Virus record (IMG/VR): IMGVR_UViG_3300036766_000091
Location: 1 to 25,916 of that record
Length of the DNA stretch: 25,916 bases
Source of the DNA: a virus
Strand: one strand, 5' to 3'
Translations under genes and position numbers: made by a program
In this document: positions 5,967-16,173 of the stretch, piece by piece
Layout: each line of letters opens with the position of its first letter
How positions within the stretch are numbered: position 1 is the stretch's first letter
Notes under the pieces: generated by a model
Told to the model about the DNA's origin: nothing
Database searches by the model: none
Seen by the model: only the letters and a program-made list of their open reading frames with translations

Positions 5967-6144
5967 GCGGCCAACTTGCTTCAACTGTCGTACTGAGTAC
6001 GTGGCGTCATGTAGCAGGGCCTACTGCCTCCGCTGCCTAGAGAGCGGCAGGGAGCTCAGGCCAATCCCGGTACTGCGTTCCCTGTGGTGGGACATGGAAG
6101 ACTTGATTGCGTCGACCTTGGATTGGTGCCCCTTTGGCGACTGA
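5956..6144 (+). CDS. Small CxxC zinc-ribbon protein
   Basis: 62 residues, starting at ATG 5956, eleven bases inside the end of the previous gene. [20 protein letters not shown] gives two CxxC knuckles with an extra Cys between them. The C-terminal half ([19 protein letters not shown]) is hydrophobic and helical but too mixed to be a clear membrane segment. Function unknown. It is one of the run of small zinc-type proteins in this region. Confidence 0.6.
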
Positions 6145-6637
6145 GCCCACACCCCATCCCGAAGGCGGAGCCGGGATCAAGGAGTGCGGGAAGTGCTTGT
6201 TGGCCAAGCCGATAAACAGCTTCCCTATTCGCAAATATAAGCTGAAAATGGGCACTTCCTGCTGGTGCCACGAGTGTCATGCGGAGTATTATAGGGAGTG
6301 GAAGATGAATTCGGACCACTACAAACTGCCTCCGAACTACTGCCGATCGCGGGAATACAGCTCGTGGGTCAATATGCGGGCGAGGTGTCTAAACCCTAGG
6401 AGCAAGTCTTTCAAATATTACGGTGGCAGGGGAATTACGGTATGCCGTCGCTGGCACTGGTCCTTTCCCAATTTTCTAAAGGACATGGGTCCAAGGCCGG
6501 AAAGCACGACACTAGACCGCATCAACAATGATGGAAACTACGAACCAGGGAATTGTCGCTGGGCCACGGCGAAGCAGCAACAGTCCAATAAGCGAAAGAA
6601 GATTTTTAAAACTCCGCAAACCCCGCAGAGCTATTGA
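6134..6637 (+). CDS. HNH-like endonuclease with N-terminal zinc finger
   Basis: About 167 residues from TTG 6134 (176 if TTG 6107 is used). No ATG is well placed, so the start is uncertain. It has an N-terminal CxxC-x(n)-CxxC finger ([28 protein letters not shown]), then a domain I know from phage free-standing nucleases: [58 protein letters not shown] and a basic tail. [14 protein letters not shown] is the HNH-like core. This family spreads as homing-type genes. Base composition is lower in G+C than the neighbours (216 of 420 bases at 6181-6600, about 51%), a sign of later arrival. It ends the packed early operon; a non-coding gap follows. Confidence 0.8.
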
Positions 6638-6765
6638 CAGCCTCTGCCTTCCTGCATCACACTCCCATATGTAGTAGGGCTTCGCCAGGAGCCACAAGCT
6701 ATACGCCCTCCCCGCGCGAGCCGGGGTCCAATCAAACAGCCAAGACCGGAGGACTGCCCAAGCTC
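6638..6765. other. Gap between early operon and packaging genes
   Basis: 128 bases without a convincing gene. A 5-bp GC hairpin (CCCCG at 6710-6714 with CGGGG at 6722-6726, loop of seven) lies in it, with no U-tract. TTGACA at 6634-6639 has no matching -10 at normal spacing. The gap is the largest break in the first 9 kb, so it is the natural place for a late promoter or regulator site, but I cannot identify one. It ends with GGAGG (6749-6753) upstream of the next ATG. Confidence 0.4.
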
Positions 6766-7068
6766 ATGTCGCGCAAGATTGCCGTTCAAGGCGAGACCGT
6801 GCACCTGAAGAAATCCATCGCTAAGCTACTAGTGCGCCGGCTGCTCGCTCGCTGGGTAGTGGTGAATCGGAGTATCCAGCGGGTGCCGATCAGTGAACTC
6901 CCGCCCGGAGTCTTCGCCCGACTGCCCCGCTGTGTAAGCCAGGCGAAGCCCTACATCCCAGACAAACTTCCACCTTACGAACTCCCAGGGCTGAAGTTCG
7001 AGCTTCCCGGAGGCATCCCGTCCCAGGTGAGGTTCCTGACCGTGGCTGCTCGGTCGCTAGTCCCATGA
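6766..7068 (+). CDS. Hypothetical protein upstream of terminase
   Basis: 100 residues from ATG 6766, preceded by CGGAGG about 12 bases upstream. A longer in-frame reading from TTG 6634 is rejected: its extra 44 residues are Ser/Pro/Thr-rich and lack a ribosome site. The protein is basic and beta/helix mixed (KIAVQGETVHLKKSIAKLL; RRLLARWVVVNRS) with a Pro-rich second half (DKLPPYELPGLKFELPGG). Not recognised. It is coupled to the small terminase candidate by ATGA (7065-7068), so it probably belongs to the packaging transcript. Confidence 0.6.
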   Translation: MSRKIAVQGETVHLKKSIAKLLVRRLLARWVVVNRSIQRVPISELPPGVFARLPRCVSQAKPYIPDKLPPYELPGLKFELPGGIPSQVRFLTVAARSLVP

Positions 7069-7520
7069 GAACCGCCGAGACGATTGAGCGGGAAAAGGCT
7101 GACAGGGAAGCGCCTGACAGCAGTGGCCAAACAGTCAAGCACCCAAAGACAAAGCACTTAGCCCCGTACCAGTGGAAGCCCGGGCAGAGCGGAAACCCCG
7201 GCGGGCGCAAGGTAGACCTCGCCAAGCAGATTGCCAGGGCCGTCTTCGAGCAGAATGAGGATGCAGCCATCTCCGCCTTTGCCAAGATTCTCCGCAAGGG
7301 CAACGCCTATGCCTTCAAGGAGTTAGCCGACCGCGCTTACGGAAAGGTGACAGACAAGCTAGAAGTGACGGAGAAACCCCCAACCGACGATGCCGACCTC
7401 ACAAGCAGAATCGCGCAGCTTGAGCGAGATCTTGGCCTTGCGCGAGAGATTGACGAAGCTGGAAGAGCTGGCCTCGTTGCGGCAGGAACTGGCTCGCCGC
7501 CAAGCTCGCACGAAGATTAA
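7065..7520 (+). CDS. Small terminase subunit candidate (DUF5681 domain)
   Basis: 151 residues. The DUF5681 hallmark is at about residues 34-50 (PYQWKPGQSGNPGGRKV). After it come a helix (LAKQIARAVFEQNEDAAISAF), FKELADRAYGKV, and a C-terminal coiled-coil-like part (LTSRIAQLERDLGLAREID). DUF5681 proteins are regularly found directly upstream of phage large terminases and are treated as the DNA-recognising small subunit, though direct proof is thin. Here the gene overlaps TerL by 131 bases, an unusually long overlap that supports tight co-expression. The start overlaps the preceding stop by ATGA. Confidence 0.75.
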   Translation: MRTAETIEREKADREAPDSSGQTVKHPKTKHLAPYQWKPGQSGNPGGRKVDLAKQIARAVFEQNEDAAISAFAKILRKGNAYAFKELADRAYGKVTDKLEVTEKPPTDDADLTSRIAQLERDLGLAREIDEAGRAGLVAAGTGSPPSSHED

Positions 7521-8883
7521 TAGCTACTTCCCCGACACCGGCCCCTTGCGCCGGGAGTTGTATCCCAAGCATTGCGAGTTTTTTGAGGCCGGCATAGACC
7601 GCCGAGAACGGCTGCTACTAGCGGCCAACCGCATCGGCAAGACCGAGGGCGTGGGCGGATACGAACTGACGCTTCACCTTACCGGGCGCTACCCCGCCTG
7701 GTGGAAGGGCCGAAGATTCAGCAGGCCGGGAGCATTCTGGGCTGCTGGCGACAACAGTAAGACGGTCCGCGAGATTCTTCAGCAGAAACTCTTGGGGCCC
7801 ATCGGGGACTGGGGAACTGGCCTAATCCCTGGGGATGCGATTGTTCGCACCACGCGGGCGATGGGCATGGCGGATACGCTGGACTCGGTATTCGTTAAGC
7901 ACGCCTCAGGTGGTACAAGCCGCCTAGTATTCAAGAGTTACGAACAAGGCCGGGAGAGCTTTCAGGGCACAGAGCAGGATGGCATCTGGCTGGATGAAGA
8001 GCCTCCGTTGGACGTGTACACGGAATGCCTGCTTCGCACCATGACCAACAACGGCATGGTGATGTGTACGTTCACTCCGTTGATGGGCCTGAGCGATGTG
8101 GTAATGCTGTTCCTGCCCGGCGGGAAGCTAGGGGAGCAGCCGGCAGAGGGTCGCTACGTGGTGATGGCGACGTGGGACGATGCGCCCCATCTGGACGAAG
8201 CGGCGAAGAAGGAATTGTGGGCCGCAATCCCGCCCTTTCAGCGAGACGCTCGATCTAAGGGCATTCCGCAGCTGGGTTCTGGTGCCATCTATCCGGTGCC
8301 GGAGAGCGAGATTGTCACGCCTGACATCCCCATCCCCAAGGAGTGGCCGAGGGCCTTCGGACTGGATACGGACATGGGTTCCGGGTTCACTGCGGCCATC
8401 TGGCTGGCGCTGAACCGCGAAACTCAGACTTTGTACCTCTACGACTGTTACAAGCGCAGTCGGTCAGAGCTGGCCGTCCATATTGAGGCGGTAAAGCAGC
8501 GTGGCGCATGGATTCCAGGCGTCGGCGACGCTGCGGCTCTGATCGTGACCGCACACGACGCCGAACAGCTAATCGGTCTGTACCGCAGGGCGGGATTGAA
8601 CATCAACCTGCCCGATAAGAGCGTGGAGGCTGGGATTCAGAAGGTATGGGAACTGCTCTCTCAGGGACGACTGAGGGTATTCCAGTCCTGCCAGTCTTGG
8701 TTTGAGGAGTTCCGGCTGTACCGAAGGGACGAGAGGGGCAGGATTGTGAAGCAAAACGATCACTTGATGGACGCCACGCGCTATGCGGTTATGAGCGGAC
8801 TAGCGAAAGCAATCACCGAGCCGTTGCCCAAGACACGCGCCCGCGCCGTACCTGCGGGGGGGGCCGATGGATGGATGGCGTGA
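7390..8883 (+). CDS. terL: Terminase large subunit (TerL)
   Basis: 497 residues. The ATPase-nuclease motor pumps DNA into the prohead and cuts the concatemer. The N-terminal 45 residues are a charged helix, then FPDTGPLRRELYPKH, typical of this TerL group. Walker A is AANRIGKTE (residues 78-86), Walker B is GIWLDEE (D202, E203), and the coupling motif is TFTP (227-230). The nuclease domain shows FGLDTDMG (D326), AHD (D390) and the final acidic motif NDHLMDATRY (D457, D461). All expected residues are present. The start at 7390 lies well inside the small-subunit gene; related TerLs carry a similar leader helix, which supports it. It is followed directly by a small gene and the portal. Confidence 0.95.
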   Translation: MPTSQAESRSLSEILALRERLTKLEELASLRQELARRQARTKINSYFPDTGPLRRELYPKHCEFFEAGIDRRERLLLAANRIGKTEGVGGYELTLHLTGRYPAWWKGRRFSRPGAFWAAGDNSKTVREILQQKLLGPIGDWGTGLIPGDAIVRTTRAMGMADTLDSVFVKHASGGTSRLVFKSYEQGRESFQGTEQDGIWLDEEPPLDVYTECLLRTMTNNGMVMCTFTPLMGLSDVVMLFLPGGKLGEQPAEGRYVVMATWDDAPHLDEAAKKELWAAIPPFQRDARSKGIPQLGSGAIYPVPESEIVTPDIPIPKEWPRAFGLDTDMGSGFTAAIWLALNRETQTLYLYDCYKRSRSELAVHIEAVKQRGAWIPGVGDAAALIVTAHDAEQLIGLYRRAGLNINLPDKSVEAGIQKVWELLSQGRLRVFQSCQSWFEEFRLYRRDERGRIVKQNDHLMDATRYAVMSGLAKAITEPLPKTRARAVPAGGADGWMA

Positions 8884-12204: not shown

Positions 12205-13416
12205 ATGGCAAGCACTTACTTGACCCCTACGGCAGTGACCCGCGCCATCGCGGCGATCCTGCACCAAAGGGGAAGGTTCCTCCAGCGAATCAACAAGCAG
12301 TATGACCCACAGTATTCGCAAGAGGGTCAGCGGCACGGCGGCGGGTCCATCAAGATCCGAATGCCCAACCAGTACACCGTTCGCACCGGCACGGTGATGG
12401 ACGTGCAAGACACCACGGAAGCCAGCGAGACGATGACCATTGGCACGATGAAGGGCGTGGACCTGAACTTCTCGGACACGGACTTGGCATTGTCCATTGA
12501 GGACTTCACCAAGCGCTTCATCAATCCGGCAGTCGCGGCCTTGGTTTCCAACATCGAGGCGGACATCATCGTTGGCGCGTGCAATGGAGTGGCCAACATG
12601 GTGGACAACGACGGGGCTGCATTCAGCTTCCTGAACATCATGCAGGCCCGGCAGAAACTCATCGAGGGCTTAGTGCCCGACGACGAGGACGAGTTGAGCC
12701 TATTCCTGACTCCTTCGCACAACACGAAGTACGTGGATGCGGTGAAGGGCTTGTTCGCCCCGGCAGGGCGGATTGGCCAGCAGTATCAGGAAGGCATGGT
12801 TGGACCGGTTGCGGGAGTGGGCTGGGTCGGCACCAGCACGCACCTGACGGACCTGACCACGGGGACAGGCAGCAAGGGCGACACGTTGTACAACGTGAAC
12901 CCCGGAAGCCAGGTCGGTGCGGCCATCACGGTCGATACCGGAACCATCACCATGAAGAAGGGCGAGGTTGTGACCCTTGCGGGCTGCAACGCAGTACACC
13001 CAGAAACCAAGGTGGACCTGGGCTACCTCAAGCAGTTTGTTTTGACGGCAGACCACGGGGCATCGTTCACCACGCTGAACATCTCACCATCCATTGTGGT
13101 GACGGGCGGCGGGCAGAACGTGACCGCATCCCCCACCAACGGCGGTGCGGTTAGCAAAATCGGGGCAGGAAACGGGGAGCTGCTGAATCGCACCCTGTAC
13201 TTCCACCGCGATTTCTGCGCGGTCGCGTTCGCTGACCTGGAAAACCCCAAGAAGTACGGAGCCTGGGGCGATGTTCAGGTACTGGATGGCGTCTCGGTTC
13301 GCCTGTGGCGGCAGGGTGACATCACGAACGGGGCATTTCCGACCCGCCTGGATGTCCTCTACGGCTACAAAGTAATCCGGCCACAACTGGCCTGCCGCAT
13401 TCACGCGGACGGCTAA
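12205..13416 (+). CDS. Major capsid protein (P22 coat gp5-like)
   Basis: 403 residues (P22 gp5 is 430). It forms the icosahedral shell by the HK97 fold. The start (STYLTPTAVTRAIAAILHQ) and the segments FLQRINKQYDPQY, GGSIKIRMPNQYTVRTG, DFTKRFINPAVAALVSNIEAD and FCAVAFADLENP are those of the P22 coat family. The region at about residues 220-320 (MKKGEVVTLAGCNAV, then a Thr/Gly-rich stretch) is the insertion-domain-like part. The start is preceded by AAAGGAAA. It is followed by a strong hairpin and two small capsid-associated genes. Expression is probably high. Confidence 0.95.
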   Translation: MASTYLTPTAVTRAIAAILHQRGRFLQRINKQYDPQYSQEGQRHGGGSIKIRMPNQYTVRTGTVMDVQDTTEASETMTIGTMKGVDLNFSDTDLALSIEDFTKRFINPAVAALVSNIEADIIVGACNGVANMVDNDGAAFSFLNIMQARQKLIEGLVPDDEDELSLFLTPSHNTKYVDAVKGLFAPAGRIGQQYQEGMVGPVAGVGWVGTSTHLTDLTTGTGSKGDTLYNVNPGSQVGAAITVDTGTITMKKGEVVTLAGCNAVHPETKVDLGYLKQFVLTADHGASFTTLNISPSIVVTGGGQNVTASPTNGGAVSKIGAGNGELLNRTLYFHRDFCAVAFADLENPKKYGAWGDVQVLDGVSVRLWRQGDITNGAFPTRLDVLYGYKVIRPQLACRIHADG

Positions 13417-13483: not shown

Positions 13484-13687
13484 ATGGCAATCGGAGAATA
13501 TCTCGGGAACGGAAACCCGGATGGCAGTTCGTTCGGGTCCGCCATCACCGAGAAGATCAGTTTCTACGGCATCACGCCCGTCGTGCAGGCGCAAATCGCT
13601 GCCGCCGGCACGGACGCCGCGACCACGCAGACGTTGGCAAACGACCTGCGGACAAAGCTCATCGCCCTGGGACTTGTGAAAGCCTGA
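13484..13687 (+). CDS. Small capsid-associated (decoration/head-fibre-like) protein, copy 1
   Basis: 67 residues, ATG 13484 with AAAGGAGAAA upstream. The N-terminal 25 residues are Gly/Asn-rich. The C-terminal part reads KISFYGITPVVQAQ, IAAAGTDAATTQTL and ANDLRTKLIALGL. I know this K-I-x-F-[FY]-G-x-x-P-V-x-Q plus 'xxLxALGLV' pattern from short proteins encoded next to phage coat genes, often labelled head-fibre or decoration proteins. The helix at the end could trimerise. The nearly identical second copy follows at 13761. Placement straight after the coat gene fits a high-copy capsid protein. Function is inferred, not shown. Confidence 0.75.
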   Translation: MAIGEYLGNGNPDGSSFGSAITEKISFYGITPVVQAQIAAAGTDAATTQTLANDLRTKLIALGLVKA

Positions 13688-13704
13688 TCCCAGCTAAACC
13701 GGAT

Positions 13705-13760: not shown

Positions 13761-13961
13761 ATGCCGCTGAGAGAAGGCGCGTTAGACCGCGATGCCATTG
13801 CAAGCCTAGTGGGCTTGAAGGCCGCGGACAAGATCAGTTTCTACGGAGTAGCCGCCGTATCCCAGGCCAGCATCGCCGCAGCCGGAACCGATGCCGCAAC
13901 GACTCAGACCTTGGCGAACGATTTACGCACCAAACTCATCGCCCTCGGACTGGTAGTTTAG
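13761..13961 (+). CDS. Small capsid-associated (decoration/head-fibre-like) protein, copy 2
   Basis: 66 residues, ATG 13761 with AAGGAG at about 13748-13753. It shares with copy 1 the KISFYG motif and an uninterrupted identical run of 28 residues to near the C-terminus, while the first 25 residues (MPLREGALDRDAIASLVGLK) are different. The gene therefore has a variable head and a conserved C-terminal module. The conserved part is coded with different synonymous codons at 18 of 28 positions, so this is not a recent tandem duplication. It probably sits on the capsid like copy 1, perhaps as a hetero-oligomer. A hairpin separates it from the glycosyltransferase gene. Confidence 0.75.
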   Translation: MPLREGALDRDAIASLVGLKAADKISFYGVAAVSQASIAAAGTDAATTQTLANDLRTKLIALGLVV

Positions 13962-14005: not shown

Positions 14006-15238
14006 ATGAGAGTCATTTTCGCCATCCCGGCACTCACGGGCACGTTGCACTCGCACTGCGTCTTGAGTCTGATGCAGGCGCAGCGCATTTTGGACCTCAA
14101 GGGAATCCCCCACGAACTGTTCATCTTGGCGAATTGCCCGATGATCAGCGTGGCGCGGAACACCCTGACCGCGATGTTCATGGCGGACGCCGAAGCCACG
14201 GACCTGTTCTTCATCGATTCAGACGTGGGCTTCGATTCAGAGGCCGTTGTCAAGATGCTGGAGCGCCCGGAGGAGGTTGTGGCCGGGGTCTACCCCCTGA
14301 AACGCGCCGAGGGGGGCTTCCCGGTACAAATCAAGACCGAAGATGGCGTTCCGCTGGGGCGGGAGGGCTTAATCGAGGCCGACTTCCTGCCTGGCGGGTT
14401 CATGCGTATCAAGCGCAGCGTATTCGAGAAGATGATGGTGTCCTACCCCGAACTAAAGTATGAGGACAGCGTGGTGTGGGTGGACAGCGGCACGCTGCAG
14501 GCGGCCTATGACCTGTTCAGCATGGGCGTCTATGGGCGGAGATTCCGGGGAGAGGACTTCGCGTTCTGCCAACGCTGGCGGGACATCGGGGGACGGTGCT
14601 GGGTTTATCCAGACATCGACTTCCAGCACATCGGCAGCAAGGCATATAAGGGCAATTACCATGAACACCTGCTCCAGCTTCCGGGCGGGGCTAAGTCTGA
14701 CCTGCACCTAGAGAAGGCGCGCAAATTAGAGGGCTGGATGACCGAGCCAGAGTTGGTCTGGTTGGCGCAGCAGGCGACATTCCGCCAGAAAATCGTCGAG
14801 TTAGGTTCATTCCTCGGACGTTCTACTAGGGCACTGGCCGACAACACGCCGGGAACGGTGTGGGCGGTGGATGACTGGAAGGGGCCGCGGGACTTCGGGG
14901 AGTGGGAACCGGAAGTCAGTGCCGGGGTTTTCCCCGGATTCATTGAGAACATGGGTGACTTGATTCAGGCGAAGAAGGTGGTGCCGGTCAAGAGCAAGCA
15001 CGAGGAACTGGACATCTCCACCTTGCCCGTACCGGACATGGTGTTCCTAGACGGGCACCATACCTACGAGGCCACCAAGCGGGAGATACTGCGCTGGCAG
15101 GCACGCCTGCAGCCGGGTGGCCTGCTTTGCGGCCACGACGCGAACTGGGAGAGTGTTGCTCAGGCCGTGAGCGAAGTCCTGCCGAGAGCCGAGACGGCTC
15201 CCGGGACGCAGATTTGGCACTCACTGGTGAACCCGTGA
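14006..15238 (+). CDS. Glycosyltransferase-methyltransferase fusion protein
   Basis: 410 residues in two domains. Residues 1-235 look like a GT-A glycosyltransferase: MRVIFAIPALTGTL start, ISVARNTLTAMFM, FFIDSDVGFD with the DxD at 71-73, AGVYPLKR, and GEDFAFCQRW (E183, D184) with a later His (FQHIG). Residues 255-410 are a class I SAM methyltransferase of the Methyltransf_24 type: VELGSFLGRST (264-274) for SAM binding, VDDWKG, MVFLDGHHTYEATKREI and PGGLLCGHD. No TM or signal segment, so it should act in the cytoplasm. A 101-codon upstream extension is rejected because the first GT motif starts here. It sits inside the head genes, coupled by GTGA to the next gene. Substrate unknown; a virion protein or host glycan are both possible. 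Confidence 0.85.
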   Translation: MRVIFAIPALTGTLHSHCVLSLMQAQRILDLKGIPHELFILANCPMISVARNTLTAMFMADAEATDLFFIDSDVGFDSEAVVKMLERPEEVVAGVYPLKRAEGGFPVQIKTEDGVPLGREGLIEADFLPGGFMRIKRSVFEKMMVSYPELKYEDSVVWVDSGTLQAAYDLFSMGVYGRRFRGEDFAFCQRWRDIGGRCWVYPDIDFQHIGSKAYKGNYHEHLLQLPGGAKSDLHLEKARKLEGWMTEPELVWLAQQATFRQKIVELGSFLGRSTRALADNTPGTVWAVDDWKGPRDFGEWEPEVSAGVFPGFIENMGDLIQAKKVVPVKSKHEELDISTLPVPDMVFLDGHHTYEATKREILRWQARLQPGGLLCGHDANWESVAQAVSEVLPRAETAPGTQIWHSLVNP

Positions 15239-15414
15239 AGCTCACAGCGACCCAGCGCCGCCGCCTACAGTATGCGCTGTTCGCCCTGCCCGGAAGGCGA
15301 TACCCCATCCCCGACAAGTCCCATGCCGCCAATGCTAGGGCGCGGGTGATGCAGTTCGGGACGCCAGCGGAGAAAAAGACGGTATTCGCCAAGACCTTCA
15401 GGTTCTTCAGGTAG
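15235..15414 (+). CDS. Small DUF6582-like protein
   Basis: 59 residues from GTG 15235, which overlaps the preceding TGA. The pattern LPGRRYPIPDKSHAANARAR followed by VMQFGTPAEKKTV is like the DUF6582-type module (R-x-Y-P-I-x-D-x-x-H-A-x-N-A-x-x-R-V-x-Q-x-G-T-x-x-E) seen as small stand-alone proteins or as a tail of larger head proteins in phages. It is basic and ends TFRFFR. Role unknown; possibly DNA- or capsid-associated. Three bases separate it from the gp4-like gene. Confidence 0.65.
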   Translation: MKLTATQRRRLQYALFALPGRRYPIPDKSHAANARARVMQFGTPAEKKTVFAKTFRFFR

Positions 15415-15417
15415 CCC

Positions 15418-16173
15418 ATGCCAGTTCTAGCCAACGATTACTCCAATTTCAGTTACACCACGAACGGCAAGGCCATCGTTAAGCGCGCCCTGCGGCTCTT
15501 GGGGGCAATCTCATCCGGCGAGGAACCATCCGGCAATGAGTTGACGGATGGGATCGAAGCCCTGAACAAGATGCTGGACTCCTGGAACTCGGAAAACCTC
15601 ATGGTGTGGGCGCTGGAGGAGTTCAGTTTCACCACGAACAGTCGCAGCATGAGTGTCGGGCCGGGGGCTGACTTAGATATGCCACGCCCCGGAAGTCTGG
15701 AGAGGGGCCAAGTGTTCATCCGCAAGGATGAAATCAGCTACCCGTTGGAACCCATGACCTCGGCGGAGTGGGGCTTGGTGGAGGGGCTGACAAGTTCGGG
15801 TCTTCCGAATGCCTTCCACTATGACCGGGCGGTTGCGTTCGCCAGCCTGAACTTCGACATCACCCCAGACCAAACATACACCCTGGTACTAAGAGTCCCA
15901 ACGCTGCTGCGGCAAATCACATCGGCGGTTGCGACGATTCAGCTTCCCGCCGGATATGCCGAGGCGCTGGATTATAGCCTAGCCATCCGCTTGGCGCCGG
16001 AGTATGGGAAGGAAGTCCCTTTGACGATTCTCGACATAGCGACCACGGCGCGAGCCAAGATTCAGCGCAACAATGTCAGGGTTGGTGAGTTATTCGCGGA
16101 CTCAGTGCAGACCTGTGACTCGGGGGGTCTCCTGCTGGCCGACATCAATTCCGGTTTGCTGCGGAGGTTCTGA
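15418..16173 (+). CDS. Head completion/tail accessory protein (P22 gp4-like)
   Basis: 251 residues, longer than P22 gp4 (166). gp4 binds below the portal ring after packaging and extends it for the gp10 hub. Family-like features: KAIVKRALRLLGAISSGEEP, ELTDGIEALNKMLDSWNSEN, and a helical C-terminal part with YAEALDYSLAIRLAPEYGKE. The middle (residues 70-165) is beta-rich and Asp/Pro-rich, a segment found in the larger relatives outside enterobacterial phages. Gene order (coat ... gp4 ... gp10) supports the call. gp4 of P22 also has muramidase activity; I see no clear catalytic motif for that here. Confidence 0.85.
   Translation: MPVLANDYSNFSYTTNGKAIVKRALRLLGAISSGEEPSGNELTDGIEALNKMLDSWNSENLMVWALEEFSFTTNSRSMSVGPGADLDMPRPGSLERGQVFIRKDEISYPLEPMTSAEWGLVEGLTSSGLPNAFHYDRAVAFASLNFDITPDQTYTLVLRVPTLLRQITSAVATIQLPAGYAEALDYSLAIRLAPEYGKEVPLTILDIATTARAKIQRNNVRVGELFADSVQTCDSGGLLLADINSGLLRRF

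Follow-up and report, generated by a model that had tools for sequence, protein, structure and literature searches.

The window analysed here, a stretch of 25,916 bp comprising positions 1-25,916 of the virus record IMGVR_UViG_3300036766_000091, holds in the middle of its capsid genes a protein that joins a predicted glycosyltransferase (GT) to a predicted methyltransferase (MT), which raises the question of what such an enzyme would modify there. The record is probably a fragment. A P22-type gene set was recognised in it with Pfam and PHROGs, consisting of terminase, portal, scaffold, coat, gp4-like and gp10-like genes. As the preliminary description had reported, the fusion gene lies between two paralogous small genes and the gp4-like gene. 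The features of this region are the following.

12205..13416, + strand: P22-type coat protein, start of the cassette (PF11651, 9.4e-30; phrog_283, 5e-54)
13484..13687, + strand: KxxFYG small protein 1, 67 aa, best candidate acceptor and candidate decoration protein (motif family behind P22-type coats; co-occurrence with the GT; AlphaFold2 (AF2) pLDDT 75, one C-terminal helix)
13761..13961, + strand: KxxFYG small protein 2, 66 aa, tandem paralogue, 62% identical (alignment; tandem pairs also in loci L008 and L009)
14006..15238, + strand: GT-MT fusion protein, 410 aa (open ORF; PHROG_1574 and Methyltransf_24; AF2 pLDDT 95.1)
14006..14677, + strand: GT-A glycosyltransferase domain, residues 1-224 (GT profile over residues 1-223; Foldseek match to 2c0n, E 7.9e-11)
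14216..14224, + strand: DxD motif D71-S72-D73, predicted metal and nucleotide-sugar site (D71 and D73 in 103/103)
14552..14557, + strand: xED motif E183-D184, predicted catalytic acidic residue (D184 in 103/103, E183 in 79/103)
14729..15235, + strand: Methyltransf_24 (class I SAM-dependent) domain, residues 242-410 (Pfam, 4e-12; MeT1 structures 6g80 and 6g7d)
15235..15414, + strand: small protein of 59 aa, basic (GTG start overlapping the TGA stop of the fusion, GTGA)
15418..16173, + strand: gp4-type tail accessory or head-tail adaptor protein, end of the cassette (phrog_12985, 8e-40; phrog_637, 3e-8)

The mechanically called ORF reaches upstream in frame to position 13703, across the second small gene, and the GT profile matches residues 102-324 of this extended version. 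Position 13703 was rejected as the start of the fusion because the homologues share their first residue, beginning at M(R/K)VIFAIP, which corresponds to position 14006. The presence of a GT and an MT in one protein of 410 residues was confirmed by the PHROGs and Pfam matches and by an AF2 model, built from 75 input sequences that all derive from the window or from IMG/VR loci, in which two compact soluble domains are predicted. Full-length relatives of the fusion, 53-64% identical, were found in the same slot of other phage genomes (L002/L003 and L008-L010), together with its neighbours. The overlap with the downstream 59-aa gene suggests that the two are translationally coupled; a longer frame at this position (15127-15414) matches phrog_16160 (5.5e-15).

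The N-terminal part matches PHROG_1574, a family of unknown function, over residues 3-214 (E 6e-26). No Pfam match was obtained for the fusion with Anp1 (PF03452) or Glycos_transf_2 (PF00535), and its relatives reach these families below threshold only. The best structural match of this part among PDB entries in Foldseek was the GT-A protein A197 of STIV (2c0n); LH3 was also matched, through its GT part. By sequence, a profile built from eight fusions and searched against the PDB reached A197 at an E-value of 0.005 only. Among 103 dereplicated GT sequences, the two aspartates of the DxD motif and the one of the xED motif, which the preliminary description had pointed out in this protein, occur without exception, and the C-terminal histidine H208 is present in 102. 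The fusion is assigned to the GT-A class on its fold (AF2, Foldseek) combined with the DxD, the xED and the C-terminal histidine, and on sequence and model this domain very probably transfers a sugar.

The C-terminal domain belongs to Methyltransf_24 (PF13578), with 47.4 bits against a cut-off of 26.3 over residues 264-378. Eleven residues are invariant in all 23 MT24 fusions (E265, G267, G271, S273, D289, D344, D349, H352, Y354, H377 and D378), including the SAM-binding motif E265/G267/G271/D289. The nearest solved relative is the mycobacterial enzyme MeT1 (6g80, E 2.7e-11 in Foldseek; 6g7d, E 4.4e-10 with the profile), and the Foldseek list also holds CalS11 (5hoq), a TDP-rhamnose 3'-O-methyltransferase. 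MeT1 and STIV A197 are the top two distinct PDB folds in Foldseek and also the best profile matches of their respective domains. The structure prediction suggested in the preliminary description thus gave, at pLDDT 95, a GT-A fold and class I MT-type matches. Loss of catalytic residues in homologues, which would have spoken against an enzyme, was looked for and not seen in either the GT or the MT residues. Both domains look catalytically intact as judged from sequence and model, and with catalytic residues this invariant a decayed or non-enzymatic protein is not expected.

The fold and the invariant residues point to a reaction in two steps. The GT-A domain would bind a nucleotide sugar via a metal held by the DxD motif and transfer the sugar either directly to a virion protein or to a sugar already present on it. 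The SAM-dependent C-terminal domain would then O-methylate the transferred sugar. The acceptor would most likely be the product of the adjacent upstream gene, the KxxFYG small protein, which is interpreted as decorating the capsid surface.

The gene order of the window recurs as a cassette of coat, KxxFYG small protein(s), GT with or without MT, gp4 and gp10. Of 80 loci collected from IMG/VR by their GT, most that include a P22-type coat show this order. Two complete circular genomes carry it as well: MW202573, with coat, a KIGFYG protein, a separate methyltransferase, GT and adaptor, and MW202691, with coat, HNH, a KVGFFG protein, a GT fused to an unrelated MT and a tail accessory factor. The conserved coat-KxxFYG-GT(+/-MT)-gp4 cassette in P22-type phages is a new result. 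The preliminary description overstated its case in holding that P22-type phages normally have nothing at this slot, as one to several different small genes lie between coat and gp4 in other such phages. No characterised isolate carrying the cassette was found in the collections searched; 11 records with related coats (PAE2, EBPR podovirus 1, CV-1-33, DSL-LC05, PBR31, phiAX1, P26218, VvAW1 and three metagenomic genomes) lack the small protein, the GT and these MTs in the stretch examined. A scan of bacterial genome contigs returned mostly GT homologues with no P22 coat nearby, and the cassette was found only in L312, a Rhodospirillaceae MAG contig. There (L312:3838-8341) the coat is followed by a 463-aa FYN/FYG-type protein with repeats and then by a fusion of the two enzymes in reversed order, MT before GT, in the same slot behind the P22-type coat.

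The small proteins share a layout of a conserved N-terminal motif, a variable Thr/Ala-rich linker and a C-terminal helix. They had been described as rich in Thr, Ser and Asn, which holds modestly for Ser and Thr (20% together, against 17% in the coat) and fails for Asn (4.3% against 5.8%). The AF2 model is of low confidence, nothing significant was found among PDB chains and no Pfam family matched the members. Fold matches in BFVD were to 'Head fiber protein', at weak E-values of 0.17 and 1.4, and in PHROGs a related C-terminal stretch falls in a 'tail spike' family. From the position behind the coat and these weak fold matches we infer that the KxxFYG protein may decorate the capsid surface. 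A tblastn search of phage records with the small protein of the window gave no match; a second, approximate query (hand-typed first residues with the C-terminal part of L252) matched only MW202520, where the small protein is present and the slot contains no GT. Some phages have, instead of the small protein, versions of 446-599 aa with repeated Thr-rich segments.

The long relatives were located at L273:4349-5689, L024:207-1880, L242:2286-4031 and L022:4074-5858. They contain repeats of the type 'PTAQAGLGI..RVSAANTLGI' and are possibly large capsid surface fibres. The tandem duplication seen in the window has counterparts in L008 and L009; in L032, L039 and L055 the two copies of a pair have diverged.

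The association of the GT with the small protein was assessed in three ways. A DNA scan with a degenerate pattern for KIGFYGxTPVVQ, in which the GT plays no part, returned 57 stretches, and in every one the motif comes immediately after a P22-type coat; with many contigs nearly the same in sequence, these are not 57 independent events. A GT follows the motif in 52 of them, 51 times within about 1 kb and once at 1.4 kb (L294). Four of the five remaining stretches end within 300 bp, leaving L278 as the one true absence (52/53 with enough sequence). In a dereplicated sample anchored on the coat (n=56, enough downstream sequence), both genes were found at 11 loci, the small protein only at 3, the GT only at 1 and neither at 41 (Fisher p=2.8e-8), though the profile for the small protein started from loci that have a GT and may be biased. 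GT is absent at 44 of these 56 coats, and an MT of the families searched accompanies 6 of the 12 loci with GT compared with none of the 44 without. As a phylogenetic control, nine independent pairs on the coat tree differ in the small protein; the GT changes in the same direction in 7-8 and in the opposite direction in 1 (sign test, p 0.04-0.07). Taken together, the scan, the counts and the tree identify the small protein, rather than the coat as such, as the partner of the GT. The GT gene is physically and statistically tied to structural genes, as a virion glycosylation system would be, and the genomic association with the capsid paralogues, the lack of which would have undermined the preliminary description, is strong and repeated.

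At two of the three loci with the small protein only, the GT slot is occupied by an MptE-like protein (L105:6483-7250 and L154:6480-7292; PF01973, below the curated cut-off), which suggests that the GT was replaced there by a different modification enzyme. The MptE-like (PF01973) domain is also found in Maf flagellin-modification proteins. At the single locus with the GT only (L119), an FkbM-like MT, recognised by eye (6128-7138), lies directly behind the coat, no KxxFYG protein is present and the GT is 3 kb downstream.

An MT was detected in 43 of 72 dereplicated cassettes whose state could be determined: MT24 is fused to the GT in 9, an unrelated MT is fused in 9, a separate MT gene lies upstream in 19 and downstream in 6, and 29 have none, where 'none' means no MT of the families modelled (the FkbM-like MT of L119 was missed by them). 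On the GT tree the MT state changed at least 17 times and its presence or absence at least 15 times, many branches being weak. The arrangements include C-terminal fusions of two unrelated kinds, N-terminal fusion of one kind and separate genes, and on other viral contigs MT24 and GT are fused in either order or encoded side by side. That different MTs were recruited to one GT is best accounted for if they all act on what this GT makes, and the repeated pairing fits the earlier proposal that a sugar is added and then methylated. That proposal is partly supported: sequence, models and gene neighbourhood bear it out in large part, and the activity itself is predicted from them. That the methyl group would cap a chain, as also proposed there, is conjectural.

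Further sugar enzymes occur in some cassettes. Beside the GT and a methyltransferase, L086 encodes RmlC (7204-7749; dTDP-4-dehydrorhamnose 3,5-epimerase, PF00908, 7e-74). The slot is taken in L063 (4283-6487) and L071 (1817-4021) by 734-aa proteins in which two GT2 domains are joined to this GT; L063 has a separate MT24 gene in addition, so that some phages may build oligosaccharides. Viral contigs in which no P22-type coat was detected (L178, L182, L199, L200, L219, L228 and L235) showed reverse-order MT24-GT fusions and MT24 proteins of 955-1222 aa, those checked having GT2 and TPR domains.

Our preferred reading, to which we give a probability of roughly 0.6, is that the fusion works in two steps and builds a methylated glycan on the virion of the phage that encodes it, the KxxFYG protein being the likeliest site. 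Its parts are of unequal strength. That the MT methylates the sugar added by the GT is likely, and the virion is favoured as the target. The KxxFYG protein is proposed as the likeliest acceptor because it is gained and lost together with the GT, while the coat usually has neither, and this assignment is put forward tentatively. More broadly, and with somewhat less than even confidence, P22-type environmental phages could possess a dedicated two-component surface-glycan system, in which a KxxFYG protein serves chiefly as acceptor for a matched GT, with interchangeable MTs at either end or as separate genes and sometimes with other sugar enzymes. About 40% of the cassettes lack an MT of the searched families, and L278 and MW202520 have the small protein but no GT in the slot, all of which counts against the preferred reading.

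The same chemistry could be directed to another virion component, be it the coat, the gp4 adaptor or the tail, with the KxxFYG protein positioning the enzyme or being a co-selected decoration. The gene lies between coat and gp4, the KxxFYG protein is very small and mycobacteriophage glycans are found on capsid and tail tube (PMC12619734, PMC12363180); yet most P22-type coats (44/56) have no GT at all, while the GT tracks the KxxFYG protein, and we regard this alternative as unlikely. The two domains could also serve different substrates, the GT making a glycan, the MT methylating something else and the fusion securing co-expression. Methyltransf_24 is a broad family and the MT goes undetected in the 40% of cassettes just mentioned, but the GT was joined more than once by unrelated MT families, which stand before or after it in fusions or next to it as genes of their own, and MeT1, the nearest relative of known structure, has a sugar as its substrate (PMC9883506), which makes separate substrates quite unlikely.

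A host target is improbable. The enzyme would then alter a surface glycan or glycoprotein of the host, like serotype-converting prophage enzymes, blocking superinfection or aiding release. Phage GTs often modify the host serotype (PMC12619734) and relatives of this GT do occur on bacterial chromosomes and, in phages, outside the structural genes; the present gene, however, is located inside the late head-assembly operon, overlaps the next gene in a way that suggests translational coupling, is tightly coupled to a capsid-adjacent protein and encodes a compact soluble protein (AF2 model) in which no membrane segment is apparent. The position behind the coat and the coupling to the small protein also argue against glycosylation and methylation of hypermodified phage DNA bases, even though DNA hypermodification by viral GTs is documented (Pyle et al. 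2024, cited by PMC12619734). The best structural relatives of the MT are small-molecule and sugar O-MTs, and none of the 20 window ORFs that were compared with PHROGs matched a base-hypermodification enzyme or a companion hydroxymethyl-pyrimidine gene, a weak point given that the contig is a 25.9-kb fragment. DNA as the target is highly improbable.

Methylated-glycan writing on the virion, as proposed here, has a viral parallel. A064R of PBCV-1 is a cytosolic GT-GT-MT protein of 638 aa; it lengthens the major capsid protein's glycan and O-methylates it (PMC9614988). Like the fusion it is a viral multidomain enzyme with GT-A and a C-terminal class I MT, a functional match; unlike it, A064R has two GTs and one MT, whereas the fusion has one of each in 410 aa. 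The acceptor of A064R is the capsid protein of an alga-infecting virus, that of the fusion a candidate only. No A064R structure was present among the PDB matches of the fusion profile at E<=0.1, and sequence homology was not detected. By functional analogy the fusion may work like A064R, outside the A064R family.

The single domains have counterparts too. STIV A197 is an essential viral GT-A for which coat glycosylation has been proposed (PMC10551542) and after which the GT of MW202573 is annotated; it differs from the fusion in being a stand-alone protein of an archaeal virus, with no MT and 21% identity. MeT1, a 1-O-methyltransferase that acts on a sugar hydroxyl (PMC9883506), differs as a stand-alone bacterial enzyme working on free oligomannosides, and at about 23% identity its substrate is not transferable to the MT of the fusion. 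The mycobacteriophages Che8, Corndog and Myrna encode GTs that glycosylate their own capsid or tail (PMC12363180, PMC11256854). The Che8 GT (Q855A2) is among the BFVD fold matches of the fusion, a partial likeness (TM 0.28); the mycobacteriophage glycans reside on coat and tail tube rather than on a KxxFYG protein, and PMC12363180 mentions no methyltransferase. For the putative acceptor, the likeness is to Dec of phage L, which as a small accessory protein decorates a capsid of P22 type (PMC7602432). The KxxFYG protein is likewise small and accompanies a P22-type coat, its decoration role being putative; Dec has an OB fold according to a reference title in PMC7602432, while the KxxFYG protein has no detectable PDB relative. 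The preliminary description knew of no phage system with this layout, and in the open-licence literature no description of a phage GT-MT fusion beside the capsid was found.

In the literature searched, virion glycosylation of phages has been shown for a few mycobacteriophages only. The cassette suggests that it is common in environmental podoviruses, and names a candidate acceptor; methylation as a finishing step on the sugar would have arisen several times, a parallel to the algal virus PBCV-1. If the proposed system is real, it would give a bacteriophage capsid a glycan coat that is modular and evolves fast. Such a coat would matter for how stable particles are, how they adhere and how they are recognised; the methylated sugar could stabilise the particle, promote adhesion to surfaces or hosts, or shield it. 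A small acceptor with its enzyme would also make a compact tool for protein glycosylation.

The GT family extends beyond capsid cassettes. In MW202825 and MW202753 its members lie beside replication genes, and since the family also occurs away from capsid genes, the capsid linkage is a property of the clade and not of the family. Homologues were also seen on bacterial chromosomes (L309-L388; Acinetobacter, Avibacterium, Variovorax and others); a few of these were looked at and adjoin housekeeping genes. A conserved pair of an annotated glycosyltransferase of ~310 aa and this GT was observed in L059, L072, L074, L077, L078, L082 and L088 (Pelagibacter phage HTVC027P). This pair follows a predicted structural protein of 111-114 aa, possibly a second GT-acceptor set in marine phages.
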